Of a DNA stretch of 45,340 nt, positions 1-45,340 are shown piece by piece. The translations under genes and the position numbers were made by a program. This DNA comes from a virus. The stretch lies in the IMG/VR virus record IMGVR_UViG_3300027985_001260, positions 1 to 45,340 of that record; one strand, written 5' to 3'. Position 1 is the first letter of the stretch, and the number at the start of each line of letters is the position of its first letter. The notes beneath the pieces are model-generated. The model saw nothing but the letters and a program-made list of their open reading frames with translations, was not told the DNA's origin and made no database searches.

Positions 1-145
1 TGCAAGGTCAAACATGATGCACCGCGAAAGTCAAGCCCGGCAAGGCTTCGTCACGAAAGGTCACGCCATGTCAAACTGCCCCAAATATATTCAGGGTCTA
101 GTGGTCGCAAGGCCGTGGGAGTTCGAGTCTCCCCTTCGGCACCAC
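1..145. repeat. Phage attachment sequence, left copy (145-bp direct repeat)
   Basis: Bases 1-145 are identical to 34591-34735; the copies diverge right after ACCAC. The unit between them is 34590 bp. Bases 90-144 are the 3' part of a tRNA-Leu. Bases 1-89 are not tRNA: they match the phage DNA upstream of the integrase start and carry AAGGTCA-type repeats that look like integrase arm sites. A normal attL would join the host 5' half of the tRNA to the core. This copy instead has the phage arm, so it is an attP-type junction. The repeat may extend left of the window. Confidence 0.9.
90..144 (+). tRNA. tRNA-Leu(CAG) 3' fragment (no 5' half)
   Basis: Visible parts are an anticodon loop TTCAGGG (anticodon CAG), the 3' anticodon strand TCTAG, a long class II variable arm with a GCAA loop (102-116), a T arm GGAG-TTCGAGT-CTCC, an acceptor 3' strand CTTCGGC, discriminator A and an encoded CCA. 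The matching 5' strands (CTAGA, GCCGAAG) are absent upstream, so this is a fragment carried as the recombination core, not a functional tRNA gene by itself. Confidence 0.7.
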
Positions 146-32205: not shown

Positions 32206-33284
32206 GCTGGGCATACTACAACGAAAATGATCCGCACGCTGCCGCGTGGCTTAACGAGCTACAGCGCCAGGGGAATATTGCCCCTGGCGTGGTGGACAAT
32301 AGGAGCATTAAGGATGTCGTGCCGTCAGACTTGGCTGAGTTTACCCAATGTCACTTTTTCGCAGGAATCGGCGTCTGGTCATTCGCCTTGCGTCTCGCAG
32401 GTTGGCCGGATGATTGGCCATGTTGGACAGGTTCATGCCCCTGCCAACCGTTTTCAGTCGCTGGAAAAGGGCTTGGAAAATCAGACGAACGGCATCTATG
32501 GCCCGTCTTCTCCAGTCTTATCGCGGAGTGTCGCCCTACAACAGTTCTTGGAGAACAGGTTGCGTCGAAAGCTGGAAGGGATTGGTTCAGCTCTTTACGC
32601 ATTGACCTGGAAAAGTTGGGATATGCAGTCGGGGCCGCCGATTTGTGCGCTGCGGGCGTCGGTGCGCCGCATGTCCGGCAACGATTGTATTGGGTGGCCG
32701 ACTCCGGCAGCGCAGGAATTCGAGATCAAAGACGTGGGCAGGATGCTGGAGCGGCGGGAGGAAGTGCGGGCCAAGGGATACAATGGGAACGGTTTCGGGA
32801 TGTCGCTCGGCATGCAGGCCGTAGCCGTCTGCTCCGGTTGGCCGACACCCCAGGCGAGGGACACGAAGGGTGCTCCCCTGCATGGGCCGCACGACAGGGG
32901 GTCGAAGGTTCCTCCATTGAACGAGGTTTGCAGATTGGCGGGATGGCCGACGCCGAATGCTCAATTTGTGGAATCGAAGCCGCGCCCGCCGATAATGCGA
33001 GGAAGGAAGCCAACGGACCCGCAGATAGGGCTTGCCGACGTGGCGGAACATCTATCTTCTCCCGTGCGACTAACGGCCACTGGCGAGATGCTGACTGGCT
33101 CTTTTGCCGGGATGGAAAGTGGCGGGCAGTTGAACCCGGCGCATTCCCGCTGGCTAATGGGGCTCCCGCCAGAGTGGGACGTTTGCGGGGCTATGGCAAT
33201 GCAATCGTTGCCCAGCAGGCGCAAGCGTTCATAGAAGTGTACATGGAATTTTTGAAATTAGGTCGTGGGGGCTCCGCGTGCTAG
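32202..33284 (+). CDS. Phage DNA (cytosine-5) methyltransferase
   Basis: A 360-aa protein from the ATG at 32202 (4-bp overlap with the previous gene). Motif I is CHFFAGIGVWSFALRLAGW, motif IV the catalytic GSCPCQPFSVAGKG, motif VI GEQVA, motif VIII HVRQRLYWVA, and motif IX/X GRLRGYGNAIVAQQAQAFI. The target recognition part is full of LADT-like repeats. It probably protects phage DNA from restriction. A 335-codon second frame is open inside it (32227-33234). Its end overlaps the convergent integrase by 4 bp. Confidence 0.85.
   Translation: MSWAYYNENDPHAAAWLNELQRQGNIAPGVVDNRSIKDVVPSDLAEFTQCHFFAGIGVWSFALRLAGWPDDWPCWTGSCPCQPFSVAGKGLGKSDERHLWPVFSSLIAECRPTTVLGEQVASKAGRDWFSSLRIDLEKLGYAVGAADLCAAGVGAPHVRQRLYWVADSGSAGIRDQRRGQDAGAAGGSAGQGIQWERFRDVARHAGRSRLLRLADTPGEGHEGCSPAWAARQGVEGSSIERGLQIGGMADAECSICGIEAAPADNARKEANGPADRACRRGGTSIFSRATNGHWRDADWLFCRDGKWRAVEPGAFPLANGAPARVGRLRGYGNAIVAQQAQAFIEVYMEFLKLGRGGSAC
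32227..33234 (+). CDS. Overlapping out-of-frame ORF inside the methyltransferase gene
   Basis: A 335-codon open frame, offset by one base from the methyltransferase. It contains SALYALTWKSW, ICALRASVRRMSGNDC, three GWPTP repeats, and a C-terminal LTGSFAGMESGGQLNPAHSR plus WLMGLPPEWD. From memory, very similar proteins are widespread in phage annotations, so this may be real dual coding. Arithmetically, the DNA for LADT in one frame gives WPTP in the other. No good ribosome site precedes the ATG, so it could also be a conserved shadow. Function unknown. Confidence 0.4.
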   Translation: MIRTLPRGLTSYSARGILPLAWWTIGALRMSCRQTWLSLPNVTFSQESASGHSPCVSQVGRMIGHVGQVHAPANRFQSLEKGLENQTNGIYGPSSPVLSRSVALQQFLENRLRRKLEGIGSALYALTWKSWDMQSGPPICALRASVRRMSGNDCIGWPTPAAQEFEIKDVGRMLERREEVRAKGYNGNGFGMSLGMQAVAVCSGWPTPQARDTKGAPLHGPHDRGSKVPPLNEVCRLAGWPTPNAQFVESKPRPPIMRGRKPTDPQIGLADVAEHLSSPVRLTATGEMLTGSFAGMESGGQLNPAHSRWLMGLPPEWDVCGAMAMQSLPSRRKRS

Positions 33285-34525
33285 TCGCACAACCCTTCCG
33301 CCGCCGCCTGGAGGTCATCCGGCCGGAGCTTGGCGTAACGCATGGTTTGCGTGATGTCTTCGTGCCGCATCATTTCCTTGATCCGGTAGATATCCACGCC
33401 AGCCAGGGCAAGCCAGGTGCCGAACGTGTGCCGCCATGTGTGGAACTTGTAGCGCATGCGCCTGTCCGTCACGCCCGCGTTGAATCCCATGTGCTCCATG
33501 AGGTCCGCGAAGCGGTGGGACAGGCCGCGCATGCGCGCGCCGTCACGCTGGGGCTTGAAGACCAGGCCGGGGCCGGTGGCCTTGCGGCGGCGCTTCAAGA
33601 CCTCGCGGGCAACGCGATTGAGCTTGACGACCTCCTCCTTTCCGCTCTTGCTATGCTCGGGCAGCACGTAGGCAACCTTTTTGCGGAGGTCCACCGCCGC
33701 GAAGTCCAGGGAAAGCAGCTCGGACTTGCGCAAGCCCGTATGCAGCGCCAAGGCGCATGCGTCGTGGAAAGCCAGGTCCGCGCGCGGCCGATCTGGCGGC
33801 CAGGTCTTGGCGGCTTCAAGGACCCGCGCCGCCTCTTCGCGCGTGAAATAGACGAAGGATGCGTTATTCGGCTTCGGCAAGCGGAGGCCCTTGACCGGGT
33901 TCACCCCGGAGAAGAGCGGGGCCGCATCGTGCTCGGACGTGGGGCGGCTGGCCGCCCAATTGTACAGGCGGCGGAGCGTCACAAGGACGTTGCGCACCGT
34001 GGCGGCCGCAAGCGGCCCGCCGCCCGTGCCGCCGCTGCTGGCCAGCCAGTCCCGGAAGCTCTCCACCGCCGGGCCGTTCACGGCCGCGAACGTCTTGCCG
34101 CCCATGAAGCGGCAGACCTGGTTCGTCAGGTAGAGTTCGTCCGTTCGCCAGGAGGACTTCGCGCCCTTCGCCCATGCGATGTATCGGCCGCACGCCTCGG
34201 CAACGGTCATGGCGCGGGCGGCGGCGCGCTCCGCTTCCAGGGCGCGGGCCTCGGACTGCCTGGCCGCATCCTCCCGCGCCTCCCGCAGACTTTGCGGGCC
34301 GCGCCCGGTGCGGCGGGCTTCCTTGATCCTGGCCAGCTCCCCGGCCGCCTTCTCCAGGGTCACGCCCTCGGATGCCCAGCCTATGCCCTCCTCCGCGCGC
34401 TTCCCGTCGCCCACGGAATAGCGTATCGCGTAGTAACGGTCCGGCTGCTTACGCGGCCCATGCGTCCGCGTGGCGTGCTCCCGGTATCTGACGCCGGGGT
34501 GCCTGGTCTGCTTCCAAGTGGCCAT
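33281..34525 (-). CDS. int: Phage tyrosine integrase
   Basis: A 414-aa site-specific recombinase from MATWKQTRHPG (GGGGGA ribosome site; the longer frame from 34591 is rejected). An N-terminal arm-binding segment and a SAM-like core-binding domain (about 95-190) precede the catalytic domain with Arg in HTGLRKSELL, HTWRH with His and Arg, a second His in MMRHEDITQ, and the nucleophile Tyr in MRYAKL. It should integrate the phage at the tRNA-Leu core at 34680-34734, 155 bp upstream of its start. Confidence 0.92.
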   Translation of the reverse strand: MATWKQTRHPGVRYREHATRTHGPRKQPDRYYAIRYSVGDGKRAEEGIGWASEGVTLEKAAGELARIKEARRTGRGPQSLREAREDAARQSEARALEAERAAARAMTVAEACGRYIAWAKGAKSSWRTDELYLTNQVCRFMGGKTFAAVNGPAVESFRDWLASSGGTGGGPLAAATVRNVLVTLRRLYNWAASRPTSEHDAAPLFSGVNPVKGLRLPKPNNASFVYFTREEAARVLEAAKTWPPDRPRADLAFHDACALALHTGLRKSELLSLDFAAVDLRKKVAYVLPEHSKSGKEEVVKLNRVAREVLKRRRKATGPGLVFKPQRDGARMRGLSHRFADLMEHMGFNAGVTDRRMRYKFHTWRHTFGTWLALAGVDIYRIKEMMRHEDITQTMRYAKLRPDDLQAAAEGLCD

Positions 34526-34590
34526 GCGCCGTCCCCCTTCCCCCTCGATTTGTCCCCCTCCTGTCCCCGTCCTGACGGGACGAAAGGTCA

Positions 34591-34735
34591 TGCAAGGTCA
34601 AACATGATGCACCGCGAAAGTCAAGCCCGGCAAGGCTTCGTCACGAAAGGTCACGCCATGTCAAACTGCCCCAAATATATTCAGGGTCTAGTGGTCGCAA
34701 GGCCGTGGGAGTTCGAGTCTCCCCTTCGGCACCAC
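34591..34735. repeat. Phage attachment sequence, right copy (attR)
   Basis: Identical to 1-145. The phage arm (34591-34679) contains CAAGGTCA (34593), GAAAGTCA (34615) and AAAGGTCA (34646), with a further AAAGGTCA just outside at 34583; these are likely integrase arm sites. The tRNA-Leu core is 34680-34734. After 34735 the sequence becomes island/host DNA with its own terminator. Confidence 0.9.
34680..34734 (+). tRNA. tRNA-Leu(CAG) 3' fragment, right copy
   Basis: Same 55 nt as 90-144: anticodon CAG, variable arm, T arm, acceptor 3' strand and CCA. This is the displaced host 3' end expected at attR; the 5' half is not in the window. Confidence 0.7.
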
Positions 34736-34886: not shown

Positions 34887-36635
34887 ATGCGAAACGCTGT
34901 CGGAACAAGTCATCTTCTCCTCAAAGGCAGAACCTACTACTTCCGCTACGCCGTGCCACGCGAGCACCGCCAGCTACTCGGCTGCAGCGAGTTGCGGCGC
35001 AGCCTTGGCACAGGCTATGCTGCCGAGGCGCGACTACGGGCAAAACGACTCGCCCTCGCCGCGCACGGCATCTTTCGCATGCTCGGACGCATGGCCAGGG
35101 AGGGACGCTTCGTGGAAGAGGATTTGAAAGACGTCAGGGAGTTCGTCGACACGATCTTCCGGGAGGCGCTCGAAGAGAACGAGATGCAGCGCTTCTCGGA
35201 GTACGTGAAGGACTACCCCAAGGAGCTGGACTACCTGCCTGGGGACACCGAAAAGCGCATCGCCTATTTCAAGGGGATATTAGCCAGGCGGGACTATACC
35301 CGGCTTGAGGACGTGGCCCGGATCTTCTGCGAGGAGGACGTGGGGGTCGACTTCCCAGAGGACCCGGTTAAGCGAAGGATGCTCGCGCACGAGATCGCCA
35401 AGCACTTCATCGACTACTACACGATCTGCATGCATCGCAGCCAAGGCGACTTCAACTACGAGAAGACCATATACCCGCCGCTGCCCGACGGGTCCCTGAG
35501 TTCACCGCCTGTGACACTCGTCGTGCCTGCCGCGCCCGCCCCCAAATCCACCCCCCTGCTCTCGTCGGTCATCGCCGAGTATGGCGACCTGCAGGTGGCG
35601 GCCGGGGCCTGGACCGAGCGCTCCCGCTTCGACATCCAGTCCACCTTGTCCAATCTGATCGACATCCTGGGCGAAGTGCCCGTTGGCAGCATCGACTATG
35701 AAGCCATACGCAACTTCAAGAGCACGCTGCTCAGGCTGCCTCCTAACCGGAAGAAGGCCAAAGCATTCCGCGACAAGAGCGTGGCTGATATCCTGGCGAT
35801 GAAGCCGACCGCATGCATCTCGAAGACGACCTTTAACAACATCATGACCAACGTCTCGAGCTTTTTCGCGTGGTGCAAGGCGCACGGCTACACGGCCGAG
35901 AACTACGCCGAGGGGATGAAGGTCAAGCAGAAGCACGCGCGGCCGGATTCCGCCAGGGATGTCTACACGCCGGAAGGATTGGCGCTTCTATTCGGCGCCA
36001 AGGGCTACACGGAAGACGGATTCAAGCACGCATACATGTTCTGGATTCCTCTGCTCTGCGCCTTCACCGGGGCGCGGTTGGAGGAGCTCTGCCAGCTCTA
36101 TGTCGCCGACGTGCGGGAAGCGGACGGGGTGTGGGTGCTGGACATCAACGAGAATCCCGATGCCGTCGGGAACAGGGACAAGCACGTCAAGAATGGCAGC
36201 TCCATCCGGCTCGTTCCCATCCACCCAGTGCTGCGGGACCTCGGCTTCCTCGACTACCACGCGTCCGTGGCTGCCGCCGGGAACGAGCGCCTGTTCCCTG
36301 AGTTGAAGAAGGTTCGGGAGCGCTACAGCCACGATGCCAGCAAGTGGTTCGGTCGCTTCCGAAAGAGCGTCGGCCTGACCTCGGACAAGCTGGACCTGCA
36401 TGCCTTCCGGCATACAGTCATCAATCTGTTCAAGCAGCAGCGCATCCCCAAGGAAGACTATTCCGAAGTGACGGGCCACGCCAAAACGAGCACTGCCGAC
36501 CGCGTCTATGCCAAAGCCTATCCCCAGGATGTGCTACTCCGGGATGTTGTTGAAAAGATAGATTACGGCTTGGACCTCTCGCACCTCAAAGGGTCCAAGT
36601 TCGGAACAGGCGCTGGCAAGAAACGAAAGGGCTGA
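34887..36635 (+). CDS. Island tyrosine integrase (DUF6538 N-terminus)
   Basis: A 582-aa recombinase. The first 60 residues (HLLLKGRTYYFRYAVPREHR, RRSLGTGYAAEARLRA) are the DUF6538-type arm domain. A helical core-binding region (about 225-340) precedes the catalytic domain with Arg in TGARLEELC, HAFRHTV, GHAK and Tyr in RVYAKAY. It reads away from the tRNA, the normal arrangement for a tRNA-integrated island, and differs from the prophage integrase. It probably mobilised the region at 34736-45340 and beyond. Confidence 0.9.
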   Translation: MRNAVGTSHLLLKGRTYYFRYAVPREHRQLLGCSELRRSLGTGYAAEARLRAKRLALAAHGIFRMLGRMAREGRFVEEDLKDVREFVDTIFREALEENEMQRFSEYVKDYPKELDYLPGDTEKRIAYFKGILARRDYTRLEDVARIFCEEDVGVDFPEDPVKRRMLAHEIAKHFIDYYTICMHRSQGDFNYEKTIYPPLPDGSLSSPPVTLVVPAAPAPKSTPLLSSVIAEYGDLQVAAGAWTERSRFDIQSTLSNLIDILGEVPVGSIDYEAIRNFKSTLLRLPPNRKKAKAFRDKSVADILAMKPTACISKTTFNNIMTNVSSFFAWCKAHGYTAENYAEGMKVKQKHARPDSARDVYTPEGLALLFGAKGYTEDGFKHAYMFWIPLLCAFTGARLEELCQLYVADVREADGVWVLDINENPDAVGNRDKHVKNGSSIRLVPIHPVLRDLGFLDYHASVAAAGNERLFPELKKVRERYSHDASKWFGRFRKSVGLTSDKLDLHAFRHTVINLFKQQRIPKEDYSEVTGHAKTSTADRVYAKAYPQDVLLRDVVEKIDYGLDLSHLKGSKFGTGAGKKRKG

Positions 36636-37140: not shown

Positions 37141-40100
37141 CTAGAGTTCATCACCATTGCGCACTGGGTTCTTCTGATAAGGAAGTTTCCGCCCAAAAAA
37201 AGACTCCGCAAAGTGTTTTGCGTTTAGGTCATCATTTTGCATTGGATCGTCTTTAATGAACAGATAAGCCCTTTCTGATCCTGTTTTTTCCGAAACATCA
37301 ATTTCGTAGTTCCACTTTGGGCTATATAGAAAGTCAGCGGCTTTACGGCATGTCAGATTGTCTATCTCCATAAACTTAAATGATCCATCCTTTAATTGAG
37401 TATGGCTCAAGAAAAGATGGTTGGTTATGTCGTAAACTGTGGTCAGATCTCCTGCGATCATGAGAGTTTCTTTGGCATCGTCCTTTTTAACGCGGTTTAG
37501 GGCCTTTCCCAGTTTCTGTACTAGGTCGATGTGGAATCCCTTGAGTTCGGCGCCAAATTCGCTAACTATAGCAGCGTCCGGATGTAACGCATCCAAAAGC
37601 ATCAATGTCCCTAGCAAGCCAAGATGATTGGGATAAAATCGGCGGCCGACTTCGCCCGGCGATGGGATGTTTCCCTTGCCGAACTCCTGCTCTTTGATCG
37701 ATCCAATATGTGCGACAACTAGGTGGGGGCAATTTCGGAATTCCTCGGGATACCGCTCGAACAGGGCATTGTCTGGGGTCACATCGAGCATGGGGGCTTT
37801 TTCATCTGTTTCATTTTGGTCGTAGTACATGTCCTTTCCGTCTGGACTCCGCTTTCGAGGGTAGAATCCCGAATCACCCGTAAAAATGACCTTTCGTTTC
37901 CCTTTTGCCGTGTCGAACTCGAATCCCAGGCCAACAGCGGAGTCACGCGTAATCACATCGTCATGGAAAGCGGTTAGAACGGTGAGCGTAGTTTTTTCAT
38001 TGATTTTGATGCGCTGATTAGTGGAGGGGGACAGGGTCACCACCTCGCCATACAATGGATCACGCAAGTCCAACAGGCCAGAAAATTTTCTCTGTACGCC
38101 GAGGCTTAGGTATAGGTTGATACACTTCTGTCGTAATTTTGTATTGTTCCTGCGCCTGTGCAAAAGCATCAAAATAGATTCTAGCTCTGCAGTGTGGTCA
38201 TCATGGGCGTGTGTGACGACGATGTGGTCGATGCCGTTTAGCCTCCCGCCAGCTCGATGAAAATTCGATATAAAGTCATATCCAGGGTCAATGACAATGC
38301 CTTGCCCTGCATGCCTGATGTAGTATCCTCCGCCTCTATCTGATTCCTCCGCTGATGGAATTGTTGGTGTGTATGAATTCCATTCTCGCAATACAAGCAA
38401 AAATGAAAATTCGTCAGAAAAACAAGACTCATCTGTGATAAAGCGATCGGTCTTTGATCGTGATAACTCAATTGTGTCGAAGTATGTTTTTTGTGTCTCG
38501 TGATCAATCTCCTCTAGGACGTGAGACAGAATCATTTCGAGGTAAGCATCTGGAGTGTCAATGGTAATTTCCAGATCATGATTCATCCGTTCTTGGCTCT
38601 GAACCGCATCTGTGCGCGATATTTCAGATGCAAAATGGCGTGAAACAGAAGTATAAAGGGATGCCAGATCTTTCTTTATATTCTCTTCGAGCCGAAGCTG
38701 GTTTTGAATTGAACTGAAAAGCAGGCTTGCTTTCTCTACGGTGCCCATTTGCAGCAAATTCAGGCTCTTTCTTAGCTTCGCCTCAAAGTACCATTTTCGT
38801 AGTGATAGACTCTGAGATCCTGTGAATTTCTTCTCAACACGATCGTAAACCCGGATTGCTTCCTTCGGCTTGCCCTGCTTCGCGAGTAACCATCCCTTGT
38901 ACACCAGCGCCCTGGCGACTGTTTCTCGAATGCCGCGCTCCGTGGCTGCTCCGAAACGGCGCTCTATGTCATCGTATGTCCGGAGTTGTTCCTCCGGTTT
39001 GCCTAGCTTCCCGAGAGTTACGGCCTTGTTTACCAGCGCCCTGGCGACCTGCTCTTGAATGCTGGGCTCCGTGTCTTCTCCGAAACGTCGCTCGATTTCG
39101 TCGTAGGATTGGAGTTTCTCCTCCACTTTTCCCTGCTGTCCGAAGGCTAAGCCCTTGTACAACAACGCCCTGGCGACCTGCACTTTAATGTTAGGTTCCG
39201 TGTCTTCTCCGAAACGTCGCTCGACTTCATCGTAGGTCCGGAGCTCTTCCTCCGGTTTGCCTAGCTTCCCGAGGATTACGCCCTTGTTTACCAACGCTCT
39301 GGCAACCTGCCCTCGAATGCCGGGCTCCGTGTCTTCCCCGAAACGTCGCCCGATGTCATCGTAGGCCCGGATTGCCTCCTCCGGCTTGCTCTGCTCCGCG
39401 AGTGTCCATCCCTTGTTCACCAGCGCCCTGGCAACCTGCCCTCGAATGTCGGGCTCCGTGTCTTCTCCGAAACGGCGTTCAATGTCATCGTAGACTCGGA
39501 GCTCTTCCTCCCGCTTGCCCAGCTTCCCGAGGGCTAAACCCTTGTTCGCCAACGCCCTGGCGGCTGGCTCTCGAATGCCAAGCTCCGTGTCTTCTCCGAA
39601 ACGTCGCTCGATGTCATCGTAGACCCGAAGTGCCTTCTCCGGCTTGCCCTGCTGGGCGAGTATCCATCCCTTGTTCACTAGCGCCCTGGCAACCTGCCCT
39701 CGAATGCCGGGCATCGTGGCAGCTCCGAAACGGCGGACGATGTCATTGTGGATTCGGAGTCCTGCCTTCAGCTTGCCCAGCCTTCCGAAGGTTATGCCCT
39801 TGTTCACCAGCGCCTTGGCGACCTGCTCTTGAATGCCGGGCTCCGTGTCTTCTCCGAAACGTCGCTCGATGTCATCGTAGACCCGGAGTTCTTCCTCCGG
39901 CTTGCCTAGCTTTCCGATGGTTACACCCTTGTACACCAGTGCTCTGGCAACCTGCCCAGCAAAGAAAGACTTCCGGGACGCTTCGAACCGATCCAGAAGT
40001 CCATCTGCTGTTTCGAAAGCCTCCTCCCATCGTTTTTGTCTGGCGAGTGCATATACCTTCTCGTTCAAGGCCATGACCTCGAACCAATCTGGAAAGACCT

Positions 40101-40422
40101 GTCCCTTGAATCCCTTGATCAGAGTAAGGTTAAGCACATCGAGAGCTTTCCCGAAGTTGTAGGCATCTCTGTTCAGGATGCACGCAAGCATCAGTGACGC
40201 AGCATGATCTGCTGACTTTGTGCCCAAAACATCTTCGAGAATGCTGACGGCTTGCGCCGTCTTTCCCTCGAGGGTCAGCAGCCGAGCATCAAGGATTGAC
40301 GCCCATTCTCCCTGTCCTGATACCTGCTCGCGCAACGCTTTGAAGCCAATATGGACCTCTGGATCGTCCCAATTTCCAGACAGAAGAAGCAGAAATTCTT
40401 TGATAATTTTTTTGCTAGGCAT
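37141..40422 (-). CDS. TPR-repeat / metallo-beta-lactamase fusion protein
   Basis: A 1093-aa protein from the ATG at 40422 (a TTG at 40434 is possible). Residues 1-150 are helical. Residues about 152-532 are nine TPR-like units of 43 residues (consensus VARALVNKGxxLGKLGKPEE, then YDDIERRFGEDTEPxI). A helical linker follows. A metallo-beta-lactamase domain spans about 690-1000, with HAHDDH at 738-743, a late His in VVAHIGS and Asp in FTGDSGF, so the metal ligands look complete. The fold suggests a nuclease or hydrolase controlled by a repeat sensor. There is no signal peptide. It lies alone on the minus strand of the island. Metallo-beta-lactamase proteins occur in AVAST type I defence, but this ATPase-free fusion is not one I know. 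Confidence 0.85.
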   Translation of the reverse strand: MPSKKIIKEFLLLLSGNWDDPEVHIGFKALREQVSGQGEWASILDARLLTLEGKTAQAVSILEDVLGTKSADHAASLMLACILNRDAYNFGKALDVLNLTLIKGFKGQVFPDWFEVMALNEKVYALARQKRWEEAFETADGLLDRFEASRKSFFAGQVARALVYKGVTIGKLGKPEEELRVYDDIERRFGEDTEPGIQEQVAKALVNKGITFGRLGKLKAGLRIHNDIVRRFGAATMPGIRGQVARALVNKGWILAQQGKPEKALRVYDDIERRFGEDTELGIREPAARALANKGLALGKLGKREEELRVYDDIERRFGEDTEPDIRGQVARALVNKGWTLAEQSKPEEAIRAYDDIGRRFGEDTEPGIRGQVARALVNKGVILGKLGKPEEELRTYDEVERRFGEDTEPNIKVQVARALLYKGLAFGQQGKVEEKLQSYDEIERRFGEDTEPSIQEQVARALVNKAVTLGKLGKPEEQLRTYDDIERRFGAATERGIRETVARALVYKGWLLAKQGKPKEAIRVYDRVEKKFTGSQSLSLRKWYFEAKLRKSLNLLQMGTVEKASLLFSSIQNQLRLEENIKKDLASLYTSVSRHFASEISRTDAVQSQERMNHDLEITIDTPDAYLEMILSHVLEEIDHETQKTYFDTIELSRSKTDRFITDESCFSDEFSFLLVLREWNSYTPTIPSAEESDRGGGYYIRHAGQGIVIDPGYDFISNFHRAGGRLNGIDHIVVTHAHDDHTAELESILMLLHRRRNNTKLRQKCINLYLSLGVQRKFSGLLDLRDPLYGEVVTLSPSTNQRIKINEKTTLTVLTAFHDDVITRDSAVGLGFEFDTAKGKRKVIFTGDSGFYPRKRSPDGKDMYYDQNETDEKAPMLDVTPDNALFERYPEEFRNCPHLVVAHIGSIKEQEFGKGNIPSPGEVGRRFYPNHLGLLGTLMLLDALHPDAAIVSEFGAELKGFHIDLVQKLGKALNRVKKDDAKETLMIAGDLTTVYDITNHLFLSHTQLKDGSFKFMEIDNLTCRKAADFLYSPKWNYEIDVSEKTGSERAYLFIKDDPMQNDDLNAKHFAESFFGRKLPYQKNPVRNGDEL
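38827..39969 (-). repeat. Nine 129-bp coding repeats (TPR-like units)
   Basis: The units are 129 bp (43 codons) in strict register, e.g. the shared string GTGTCTTCTCCGAAACG (plus strand) at 39071, 39200, 39458 and later, with a variant at 39329. Nucleotide identity between units is high, which suggests recent duplication and easy gain or loss of units. The first unit lacks its first six residues. Confidence 0.8.
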
Positions 40423-40609
40423 TGGTTTGTCCAAATTTTGGTTTTAAACAAGGGGGGATAAAAGGACGCCCACCGTCACTGAACAAAATGGAGGTCAAAA
40501 TAAGTGTAATCCCGCTGTTGCCTATGTCGCCCGACGGGTGGGCAGTAGGGCAGGAGTATCCTTCCTCTAACTAGCCCAGTTGAAATATGAACTATCCGAC
40601 ATCTATGCG

Positions 40610-40852: not shown

Positions 40853-41515
40853 TTATGCGATTGGCGCAGCAATCCGCCGCTTGGAGCCTATAACAAACCT
40901 ACCCCGGCCGACGTCCTTCCGCCCTGCCTGCCTGGCCGCATGGACCAGAGCACGGACGATTTTCCGCTTCTGAGCGAACAGTCCGGCATACGAGGGCAGC
41001 AGTCGTTCTTCCGCTTCCCATGCTGCCTGCAACCTCGCGAGCGGCGCATGCACCGCCAGTTCCTCGAAGTACGCCTGTTTGTCTCGGGAACATTCCTTGG
41101 ACAACGCAACCGTGGCCCGACCGTCCTTCTGTATGACCTCGAAGACATGCCCAGGTCCGGCGTCGACGCGCAGCCGCGTGTGCGGCCAGACCGCGAACGG
41201 CTCTCCTTCCAAAAGCCCGACATCGTCACTGCCAGCCGTGGCCAGGATGAACAAACGGTCATTCCACCAGACGAGCGCGGCATTGAGCAATCCCTGCTGC
41301 TTGCGCCGCGCCTTCTGGTCGCGCGACAGGTCGAAGATGCTCTCGCCCATGCGGGTGCGGTACTTGCCCGCGACTCGCTGGACGATTGATTCCCATGTGT
41401 CGTGCTTCTTCTGGGGCAGGACGGTCAGACCGTGTCTGACGTAGCCCCGGGCGACAAGATTGGTAGTCAGGTACTGTAGAAGATAGATGATGTCCTGGTC
41501 CGCGATGCGCTTCAT
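40853..41515 (-). CDS. Unknown 220-aa protein paired with a structured leader
   Basis: From the ATG at 41515 with a perfect GGGAGG ribosome site; longer frames upstream run through the hairpin-rich leader and are rejected. The N-terminus (KRIADQDIIYLLQYLTTNLV) is helical. The middle (LLNAALVWWNDRLFILATAG, FAVWPHTRLRVDAGPGHVFEV) is beta-rich. The C-terminus is strongly basic (QKRKIVRALVHAARQAGRK, GSKRRIA), suited to nucleic acid binding. I do not recognise the family. Being downstream of a possible large RNA suggests an RNA-protein pair, but that is inference only. Confidence 0.6.
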   Translation of the reverse strand: MKRIADQDIIYLLQYLTTNLVARGYVRHGLTVLPQKKHDTWESIVQRVAGKYRTRMGESIFDLSRDQKARRKQQGLLNAALVWWNDRLFILATAGSDDVGLLEGEPFAVWPHTRLRVDAGPGHVFEVIQKDGRATVALSKECSRDKQAYFEELAVHAPLARLQAAWEAEERLLPSYAGLFAQKRKIVRALVHAARQAGRKDVGRGRFVIGSKRRIAAPIA

Positions 41516-41685
41516 GTTGACCTCCCGGTCATGATGTAAAGCGCGGCCACCCGGCCTCGCTTCCATCGGCCCGGCAAGCCGGAGGGGTGCCACTCCCTCC
41601 GTTGACTCGTGGTCGCTTGCCTGGCCTTGGAAACGAAAAGATGCACAAACAGCAAAGGTCGGGACTTTCGAAGGCGGCTGTTGAT

Positions 41686-42495
41686 GCAGGTTGCCAACCT
41701 GCGCCGCTTCCCGTTCCGCTGCCCAGCGAAACGGAAATGCTTCTCCTTGTCCCACGCTCCCCCTGTACGGCTTGCTGCCGGTCCGCTACGACCAGCCCCC
41801 GCCCAAAAGGCGGCAGCCGCACAGGTTCCCCGTCTGCATCGTCGACGTAAAAATCTGGATCCGGTCGGTCAGTTGGTCAGGGTATGTACCGCCTCCCGGC
41901 AGCCATACTTTCCCTGTCAGGATTTCAGCGGGTAGAAGACAGAAAAACCCGCTTACCGCTCCCTGCCAACGTCATCCCTCTCGGGCCACCCTCACGGGCT
42001 ATCCGCTTCCAGACATGTACCCGGTCGCGCCATAATCCTTTCGGACTGTAGGCGCTTGAACGGTTGAGCTATTCACCGCCTCTGGCTTTCGCCCAGGCGC
42101 CGCATTCGCATTGCGGCAGACGATCATCACTGACCGAATGGCTCCCCGTCCGGGCCAGGTTGCGCAGTTTCCCGACGCCCCCTGGACAGGTTTTTCACCT
42201 GCTTCGTCGACGACCGCTACGGTCGCCCATCTTCATTGGAATATCCGGTAGAAGGCCGGGATTACTTGCCCCCTGGCAAGGGGAGATTACTCCGGCCAGC
42301 CCCGGTCGCACCGCACAAGCGTGTCTCCACGCATACGGCGCTACCCGTGCCCGTCTTTCATCCGCTTGGCAGGCGGAATCCCCGACAGGCACACCCGGTC
42401 ACTCGCTTGCGCGAGCCCGAGCTGCTGTTTGGCATCTTTGATTCATGGACATGCAGCGGATTGGCGAGCCGCTGTTCAGATCCCGGCTAGGCCGG
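41686..42495 (-). ncRNA. Candidate large structured non-coding RNA
   Basis: This stretch has no credible gene but is packed with hairpins whose loops are GNRA-type only on the minus strand. Examples: CCGGC-CTA-GCCGG (42483-42495), CTCGC-GCAA-GCGAG (42402-42415), a domain V-like fold (42308-42341), a two-part stem at 42254-42297, GACCG-TAG-CGGTC (42212-42224), CAGGT-GAAAA-ACCTG (42187-42201), GCCGCA...TGCGGC (42099-42117), CTGGGC-GAAA-GCCAG (42082-42096), TCC-GAAA-GGA (42036-42045), AGCGGGT...ACCCGCT (41927-41953) and GCAGGTTG-C-CAACCTGC (41686-41702). The RNA would precede the 220-aa gene. Its limits are unknown. Confidence 0.45.
42308..42341 (-). ncRNA. Group II intron domain V-like hairpin
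   Basis: The 34 nt fold as 9 bp (GCGCCGUAU with GUGCGGUGC), 5 bp (GCGUG with CACGC), a GAGA loop and a 2-nt UU bulge on the 3' strand. This is exactly the 34-nt domain V plan, with a CGC triad as in group IIC introns. A 44-nt stem follows after 10 nt, where domain VI would be. No reverse transcriptase gene is present, so it may be a degenerate intron or a look-alike element of a larger RNA. Confidence 0.4.
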
Positions 42496-42887: not shown

Positions 42888-43505
42888 TCAATCTCGTAGC
42901 CATTTCGGGACGCGCAGTCCATTCTTTCCATGGCGTCTTATATATTCTTTGACATGCTTTAGGAAGTCCTTCTCTTTCGCCTCTAGCGTCGCTTTCTGAA
43001 AATCAAAATTATCTTGCACTGCTTTGTACTGCTCAAGATAACTGGGTTGTTCGTCTAATGGCAGAGGCGGTTCAACGCACGGCGTGTCGTGATATTCCCG
43101 CAAGACAGTAAGGAGGGCCGTCCTGTCCTTGGGGCGGTAGTGGTCGAGCATTTCTTTGCATTCATTGACCAGAAAGTAGCGGATCTCAGCATCAGCCAAC
43201 TTCCGGTACCAGCTGTCTTCGTCCTCGGAGTATGTCCATGTCTTGTCATGGTAGATGATATTCTTGAACAGGTTCCAGACCTCCCCATACCAGAGCAGCA
43301 GCACGGCTCGCGGAAAGAACAAGCTGTCAGCGCCATATGCCTTCCGGAAATCATGGATACGAGGAATGGGGATGGCCTGCCGACCGCTCTCGATGGAACT
43401 GAGGAAGACTGGGTTTGAAAGTCCGAGCTTTTGGGCAACTACCTGCAGTGTCTCTTTATCGCGGCAGCGCAGGCCGCGAAGGTAAAAACCAAGTAGGCGG
43501 TTCAT
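42888..43505 (-). CDS. XRE-family regulator
   Basis: A 205-aa protein with an N-terminal helix-turn-helix (ETLQVVAQKLGLSNPVFLSS, IESGRQAIPIP) and a long helical, charged C-terminal half with no enzyme motif. It is divergent from the methyltransferase operon across a 304-bp AT-rich gap with palindromes, so it probably controls that operon, like the C proteins of restriction systems but larger. Confidence 0.7.
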   Translation of the reverse strand: MNRLLGFYLRGLRCRDKETLQVVAQKLGLSNPVFLSSIESGRQAIPIPRIHDFRKAYGADSLFFPRAVLLLWYGEVWNLFKNIIYHDKTWTYSEDEDSWYRKLADAEIRYFLVNECKEMLDHYRPKDRTALLTVLREYHDTPCVEPPLPLDEQPSYLEQYKAVQDNFDFQKATLEAKEKDFLKHVKEYIRRHGKNGLRVPKWLRD

Positions 43506-44058: not shown

Positions 44059-45054
44059 ATGGAGATGCCTTTGAAGGCTGGAGCGTTGTTCTCTGGCATT
44101 GGTGGATTTTGTGTAGGCTTTGAGCGGGTGGGGATTGAAACGCGTTGGGCAGTCGAGTTAGACGAATACGCTGCGAGAACCTATCGCCACAATGTAAAAA
44201 CACCTCGCGTAATCGTGGGGGACGTGCGTGCGGTCACGGTGCCAACAAGTGAGTTGGAGCCAGTGGATGTTTTGCACGCCGGTTTCCCCTGTCAAAGTTT
44301 CTCCCAGGCGGGTGGCAGGAAAGGATTTGAGGATCCTCGTGGTAAGCTGTTCTATGAAATAATTAGAATTGTGAATGAGTTTAAAGACAAGAAGCCATCA
44401 TTAATAGTATTGGAAAACTCTCCATATATTAAGCATGGAGATGGGGGGAGTTGGTTTATTGAAATTATAAAAGAAATAAAAAAAGCTGGCTACTGGTTTA
44501 GAGAAGCAAATTGTGCTGAGCTAGATACATACACTTTGACGCCATCGCCACAAAGACGTAATAGGCTATTTATGGTTGCGGTATCAATTGACAGATTTGA
44601 TAGCGGTAGATTTCCTTTTCCTGAAGTACATAATTCAGAGCCAAAACAGCTAAGTCGGTATATCGATTTTGATGGAGAAGTCGACGAAGCGTATTACCTT
44701 AGAAATGATAACAGGTACCATCATCTTATTTCGAGTTTTGCAGAAGATAAAAAATGCATATATCAATTGCGTAAGTACTTTGTGAGAGTCAAAAACCCGA
44801 ATGAATGTCCTACGCTGACAGCTAATATGGGGCTTGGGGGGCATAATGTGCCCTTTGTGCACGATTCTCGAGGACTACGAAAGTTGACAGAGTACGAATG
44901 CTTGCGTCTTCAGGGCTTTCCAGACAGTTTTGAATTTCCCGCAGACGTCCCACGGGCAAGAAGATACGTGCAGGTAGGTAATTCTGTATCTGCACAAATC
45001 GCAGAGCGACTGGGGAAAGGGATATTAGAAAAATTTGATTCGGAGCGCGAATGA
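44059..45054 (+). CDS. DNA (cytosine-5) methyltransferase of a restriction-like operon
   Basis: A 331-aa enzyme with FSGIGGFCVGFE (SAM site), GFPCQSFSQAGG (catalytic Cys), LENS in place of the usual ENV, SPQRRNRLFMV, a CPTLTAN target region, LTEYECLRLQGFP and QVGNSVSAQIA. It should transfer methyl groups to C5 of cytosine at one site. The DNA is much more AT-rich than the prophage. Its stop overlaps the start of the ATPase gene (ATGA), which shows an operon. The ATG at 44059 or 44065 may be the start. Confidence 0.9.
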   Translation: MEMPLKAGALFSGIGGFCVGFERVGIETRWAVELDEYAARTYRHNVKTPRVIVGDVRAVTVPTSELEPVDVLHAGFPCQSFSQAGGRKGFEDPRGKLFYEIIRIVNEFKDKKPSLIVLENSPYIKHGDGGSWFIEIIKEIKKAGYWFREANCAELDTYTLTPSPQRRNRLFMVAVSIDRFDSGRFPFPEVHNSEPKQLSRYIDFDGEVDEAYYLRNDNRYHHLISSFAEDKKCIYQLRKYFVRVKNPNECPTLTANMGLGGHNVPFVHDSRGLRKLTEYECLRLQGFPDSFEFPADVPRARRYVQVGNSVSAQIAERLGKGILEKFDSERE

Positions 45055-45340
45055 TGGAAATCGGTTGGCACCACCCTATTGATGATTCCGACCAGTGGGA
45101 CGGCTTTAACGAGCCTGGAATTGAGCACTTTCGGAGCAATCCCTTGCTCCACCTGGCTCGTGAAATCATCCAAAATGCAATCGATGCGCGTGATCACAGT
45201 AAGGTGCGCGTGTCTTTTAACGTGTCTGAAATTGAAACAAGTTCAATCCCAAACATCAATGAGCTACGAGCAAATTTTCATTTGTGCCTTGAGGCTGCGG
45301 AAAACGAAAGCGAAAAAGCAAAGCGATTTTTTAGAAGTGC
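45051..45340 (+). CDS. GHKL ATPase, MutL/MORC-like (5' part, cut by the window end)
   Basis: The first 96 codons (MMEIGWHHPIDDSDQWDGFN, EPGIEHFRSNPLLHLAREII) run into the ATP-binding N box QNAIDARDHSKVRVSF of the GHKL fold. The rest lies outside. This kind of ATPase occurs directly after cytosine methyltransferases in MutL/MORC-containing restriction systems and in MZA defence systems, where Z1 and AIPR genes follow. It overlaps the methyltransferase stop by 4 bp. Confidence 0.7.
   Translation, partial: MMEIGWHHPIDDSDQWDGFNEPGIEHFRSNPLLHLAREIIQNAIDARDHSKVRVSFNVSEIETSSIPNINELRANFHLCLEAAENESEKAKRFFRS

Follow-up and report, generated by a model that had tools for sequence, protein, structure and literature searches.

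In the window, which is the whole stretch of 45,340 nucleotides analyzed (IMG/VR virus record IMGVR_UViG_3300027985_001260), we identified a gene that fuses a TPR array to a metallo-beta-lactamase (MBL) core. We tentatively favor its reading as a TPR-gated phosphodiesterase or nuclease acting as a one-gene conflict effector. A one-gene sensor-effector fits because the two parts are joined in one protein, the two-metal active site is intact, constrained, and of an identifiable fold branch, the N-termini are exchangeable among relatives, the distribution is patchy with a foreign, low-G+C composition, and the gene lies in an integrase-bearing hotspot.

The gene (37141..40422, minus strand) runs from an ATG at 40422 to a stop codon at 37141 and encodes 1093 aa; an alternative TTG start is possible upstream at 40434. 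A fusion of a repeat array and a hydrolase had been proposed in a sequence-only reading, and both parts score above the Pfam cut-offs, with matches to TPR_1 (3e-20), TPR_12 (3e-17), and Lactamase_B_2 (2.7e-12, residues 709-856). The TPR array (38830..40000, minus strand, limits approximate) comprises about ten units with a period of 43 aa (z=30 vs shuffles) and is a true tandem repeat at the DNA level, with a 129-nt period and 8 in-register copies of 68-80% identity. In the full-length AlphaFold2 model (pLDDT 72, pTM 0.48), which served for the TPR helix pattern only, each unit is a helix pair, one helix of about 20 residues and the other of about 15. The tandem helix-turn-helix repeats thus make this a TPR protein. 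Such arrays are of the kind by which proteins grip other proteins, and they also act in housekeeping scaffolds, which counts against a defense reading.

The conserved MBL core spans residues 655-1093 (37144..38460, minus strand). Its HAHDDH motif occupies residues 738-743 and supplies the metal ligands H738, H740, D742, and H743, with H820, D850, and H933 completing the set. The HxHxDH motif, the further His/Asp/His ligands, and the MBL fold place the core in the MBL-fold hydrolase superfamily. The protein had also been called cytosolic; it is likely soluble, since hydropathy stays at or below 1.35 in every 19-residue window. The G+C content of the gene is 0.51, vs about 0.66 in the prophage.

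A perfect direct repeat of 145 nt, similar to the 3' end of a tRNA, flanks this prophage, with its left copy at 1..145 and its right copy at 34591..34735 (both plus strand). The prophage encodes a tyrosine integrase (33281..34591, minus strand; Phage_integrase 2e-24). The TPR-MBL gene was rejected as a part of the prophage, as the repeats end the prophage at 34735 and the gene lies beyond. The viral record extends about 10.6 kb past the repeat, into an island bearing a second tyrosine integrase, of the DUF6538 type (34887..36635, plus strand; DUF6538 4.5e-17, Phage_integrase 4.3e-8). Farther along are a C5 cytosine DNA methylase (44059..45054, plus strand; PF00145 1.7e-58, MTase_II 3.4e-78) and the beginning of a gene resembling PDC-M33A (45051..45340, plus strand; PADLOC PDLC04582 4.8e-27, residues 1-96 of 627), which is cut by the window end. 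PDC-M33A is a PADLOC defense candidate, and only its first part lies inside the window. The restriction-like operon noted in the first reading is therefore present, as is the island; the description of the gene as alone there was nearly right, since an uncharacterized ORF (40853-41755, with no Pfam or PADLOC match) and an HTH regulator gene (42888..43505, minus strand; HTH_31, below the Pfam cut-off) intervene before the methylase. The DNA of ORF 40853-41755 was recovered at 70-83% identity in genomes G879 and G844.

Two related genomes have homologs of the second integrase that adjoin a ribF-like gene. Behind a homologous integrase, G853 encodes a type I-C CRISPR-Cas system (Csd2 1.3e-92, 14-repeat array), and in G879 a HipA gene (1.2e-49; HipBA) adjoins one, so in other genomes this integration site has carried cargo of the immunity or toxin-antitoxin kind. 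At locus L100:1-12786, an integrase of this DUF6538 type and a ribF-like gene are followed by a type I-C CRISPR-Cas system whose array has 14 repeats. As for the earlier proposal of a defense effector, these findings bear out the island setting, and the effector role is a putative one.

A confident model of the core (pLDDT 87.8, pTM 0.91) was compared with the PDB using Foldseek, which returned arylsulfatase 8gyg, ElaC-like 1zkp, YhfI, PNGM-1, RNase Z, Apyc1, and PhnP and favored the RNase Z branch; the predicted fold is that of the tRNase Z/Apyc1/PhnP branch. A fold search against BFVD gave distant viral hydrolases only, and hhalign (query A2) gave RNase BN (69.7%) and YcaI (ComEC, 50.2%), both with short and weak alignments, so by sequence a ComEC-like branch is still conceivable. 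The core resembles tRNase Z (ElaC/RNase BN) in its MBL branch, its HxHxDH and GDT/S-type motifs, and its two-metal site (Foldseek E about 5e-12), but it differs by an RxWNSYTP/GGGY/NHLG/SEFGEE signature and a large TPR N-terminus. Membership in tRNase Z was rejected, with TIGR02651 at 28.3 bits vs a cut-off of 292.95. The anti-Pycsar phosphodiesterase Apyc1 shares the fold branch and a similar metal motif (Foldseek E about 6e-11), whereas the window protein is TPR-fused and not phage-encoded; this membership was likewise rejected, as PF23023 gave 17.2 bits, below its Pfam cut-off of 50. The sole PADLOC model to match the window protein was RTasMBL, the DRT-associated MBL, and it was discarded at the very low score of 15 bits; no reverse transcriptase was seen beside the TPR-MBL gene. 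None of the curated family models claims the core, in line with the earlier remark that no named system is known to have this form.

Known defense MBL nucleases, as in AVAST type I, HamMAB, and Canu, are encoded by separate genes, resemble ComEC-type competence nucleases, and are activated by a protease partner (PMC12799240). The window shares with them an MBL hydrolase in or near a defense locus, but it presents one protein with neither a protease nor an ATPase in view. An AVAST type I reading was rejected, in agreement with the first reading, as no STAND ATPase partner gene was seen in 36.6-45.3 kb (the window ends at 45340). No protease family was found among the scanned window neighbor proteins, and the HamMAB/Canu layout, in which a separate MBL gene adjoins a trypsin- or caspase-like protease gene, was not encountered at the window. 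Single-gene repeat-sensor/effector immune proteins combine a variable repeat N-terminus with a constant catalytic C-terminus. The window protein resembles these in carrying variable repeats on a constant catalytic C-terminus, but it differs in having no NTPase (STAND/NACHT) module and, as predicted, an MBL phosphodiesterase as the effector.

The core defines an apparently unnamed family with the signature RxWNSYTP…GGGY…HAHxDHTA…NHLG…SEFGEE. A DNA pattern for HAH[ND]DHTA[DE] found 23 loci in genome contigs, 22 of which encode core relatives, and a whole-genome search with a family profile recovered the same 22 genomes. In an alignment of 27 members, H84, H86, D88, H89, H166, D196, and H279, which correspond to window residues 738, 740, 742, 743, 820, 850, and 933, are invariant in 27/27, so the metal site is as complete as had been supposed; RxW(N/S)S, GGG, DPG, and the glutamate of SEFGEE show little or no variation. 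The window protein clusters with members from Desulfobulbaceae, Syntrophobacteraceae, Planctomycetota, and Cloacimonadota (support 100/99), and the Desulfovibrionaceae copies L024/L037 fall outside its group in the tree. Peptide patterns from the single protein, scanned against genome and viral contigs, found no relative, and neither did protein searches of plasmids and phages or an alignment scan of viral contigs; that none turned up in phages, plasmids, or viral contigs speaks against the defense reading. The TPR array alone, used as a query against plasmid proteins, gave one match at 23%. No description of the fusion family was found in the literature searched, whose scope did not extend to subscription papers and preprints.

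The core is constant across the family and the N-terminal part is variable. Members of the window clade have 43-aa TPRs and most others 34-aa TPRs, with roughly 2 to 13 units; the N-terminus of L050 is not made of TPRs and contains a GKS motif, and L051 has no N-terminal part. Compared with its closest relative, L097 (the G861 homolog), the window protein has a core of 69% identity with an omega of about 0.04, a rough value since synonymous sites are saturated, vs 57% identity and an omega of about 0.21 for the N-terminal part.

The main rival to a conflict effector is a TPR-regulated phosphodiesterase of ordinary signaling or RNA metabolism that has no immune role and whose island position is incidental. 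We consider this quite possible, if somewhat less probable than the reading we favor; that YhfI and PhnP rank among the closest folds agrees with it. It sits poorly, however, with the fast turnover of TPR copy number and N-terminal type, and with the distribution of the family, which extends over several bacterial phyla and to one archaeon but is patchy, with members in only about 1-5% of the related genomes sampled (14/288 in the family of G861, 4/297 and 2/199 in two phyla, and 3/299 in a third). Base composition gives a similar picture: the G+C content of 24/31 family genes falls more than 0.03 below that of their flanks, and that of 0/31 rises as far above it, although a few copies (L120, L041, and L115) equal their flanks, as an ordinary enzyme would allow. 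In G843 and G910, family matches are interrupted by an internal stop; this suggests dispensability, which again argues against a housekeeping role.

The neighborhoods of 31 family loci were examined, and 20 random loci served as a control. Clear defense or DarT-type neighbors were present at 6/31 loci, two of them by reading of the sequence only. The tool-based cases include the window locus (methylase and PDC-M33A-like gene), L040 with PARIS AriAB nearby (2e-153), L048 with a DarT match nearby and a DarT1-NADAR antitoxin match in the neighbor set, and L051, whose family gene shares an operon with DpdB, Mrr, and GHKL ATPase genes, a context unexpected for an ordinary phosphodiesterase. This operon-like stretch (L051:7339-13846) encodes a radical SAM protein, a GHKL ATPase, a DpdB/DndB-like protein, the TPR-less family MBL, and an Mrr-like endonuclease. 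The two loci read by sequence carry DarTG-like genes (L119) and SIR2-like and HsdR-like genes (L123). At L123:9539-13533 the family MBL gene lies directly behind a gene whose 721-aa product contains an HEVSH (zincin-like) motif, and the two may form a metalloprotease-MBL pair. ParE or RelE-like genes were found near L033, L041, and L047. L045 and L122 have mobile genes nearby; the latter locus (L122:5474-10518) holds a low-G+C three-gene cluster, two unknown proteins followed by the family MBL, amid integrase- and transposase-like ORFs.

On the other hand, over half of the 31 loci are solitary amid unrelated genes. A few copies are syntenic with housekeeping genes, in three pairs: L032/L037 (Liv/GAF), L038/L121 (cobalamin-type), and L041/L052 (DUF445-like neighbor). 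PADLOC matches also occurred in the 20 control loci, and enrichment of defense genes near the family was not shown. These observations weigh against the defense reading, and the regulatory phosphodiesterase stays a serious rival because copies are solitary or syntenic and there is no measurable enrichment.

A further alternative is that the protein is a maturation or modification partner for radical SAM or peptide-modifying clusters and that a peptide or cofactor is the substrate of its MBL. Radical SAM proteins made up 10/131 neighbor proteins vs 3/136 in the controls (Fisher p=0.048), and they are adjacent to the family gene in L043, L046, and L048 besides their place in the L051 operon. However, the matches concentrate in a handful of loci (L043 and L046 have three each), the difference at the locus level is weak, and neither the surroundings of the window gene nor its closest clade showed any, save one several kb off in L033, which makes this alternative improbable. 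In L046, the family gene and a radical SAM gene overlap at start/stop. Least probable of all is a counter-defense or anti-signaling enzyme that degrades cyclic nucleotide messengers as Apyc1 does, since the Foldseek match to Apyc1 and the weak PF23023 matches are set against scores far below the cut-off, large fused TPR arrays, a chromosomal distribution with no phage or plasmid homologs found, and a gene located outside the prophage.

Under the conflict-effector reading, the TPR-MBL gene would be horizontally acquired and encode a stand-alone sensor-effector. Its N-terminal TPR superhelix would serve as the sensor: infection or stress would be signaled by a protein or protein complex to which it binds, and the binding would relieve or trigger the C-terminal two-metal MBL phosphodiesterase. 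The tRNase Z/Apyc1-like MBL, gated in this manner, would then cut RNA or a nucleotide, and growth or phage replication would stop, with an antiphage outcome. A broader proposal, about which we are more doubtful, is that of an undescribed single-gene immune family, present in several bacterial phyla and archaea and having no NTPase or protease partner, in which a two-metal nuclease of the tRNase Z branch is gated directly by repeat sensors that can be exchanged.

In the literature consulted, the defense MBL nucleases described so far are separate subunits that are switched on by proteases (PMC12799240). If true, a repeat array fused directly to a phosphodiesterase from a different MBL branch would be the simplest sensor-effector layout with an MBL fold. 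The invariant signature makes the family findable in genomes, and its compact one-gene form eases testing in a laboratory strain.
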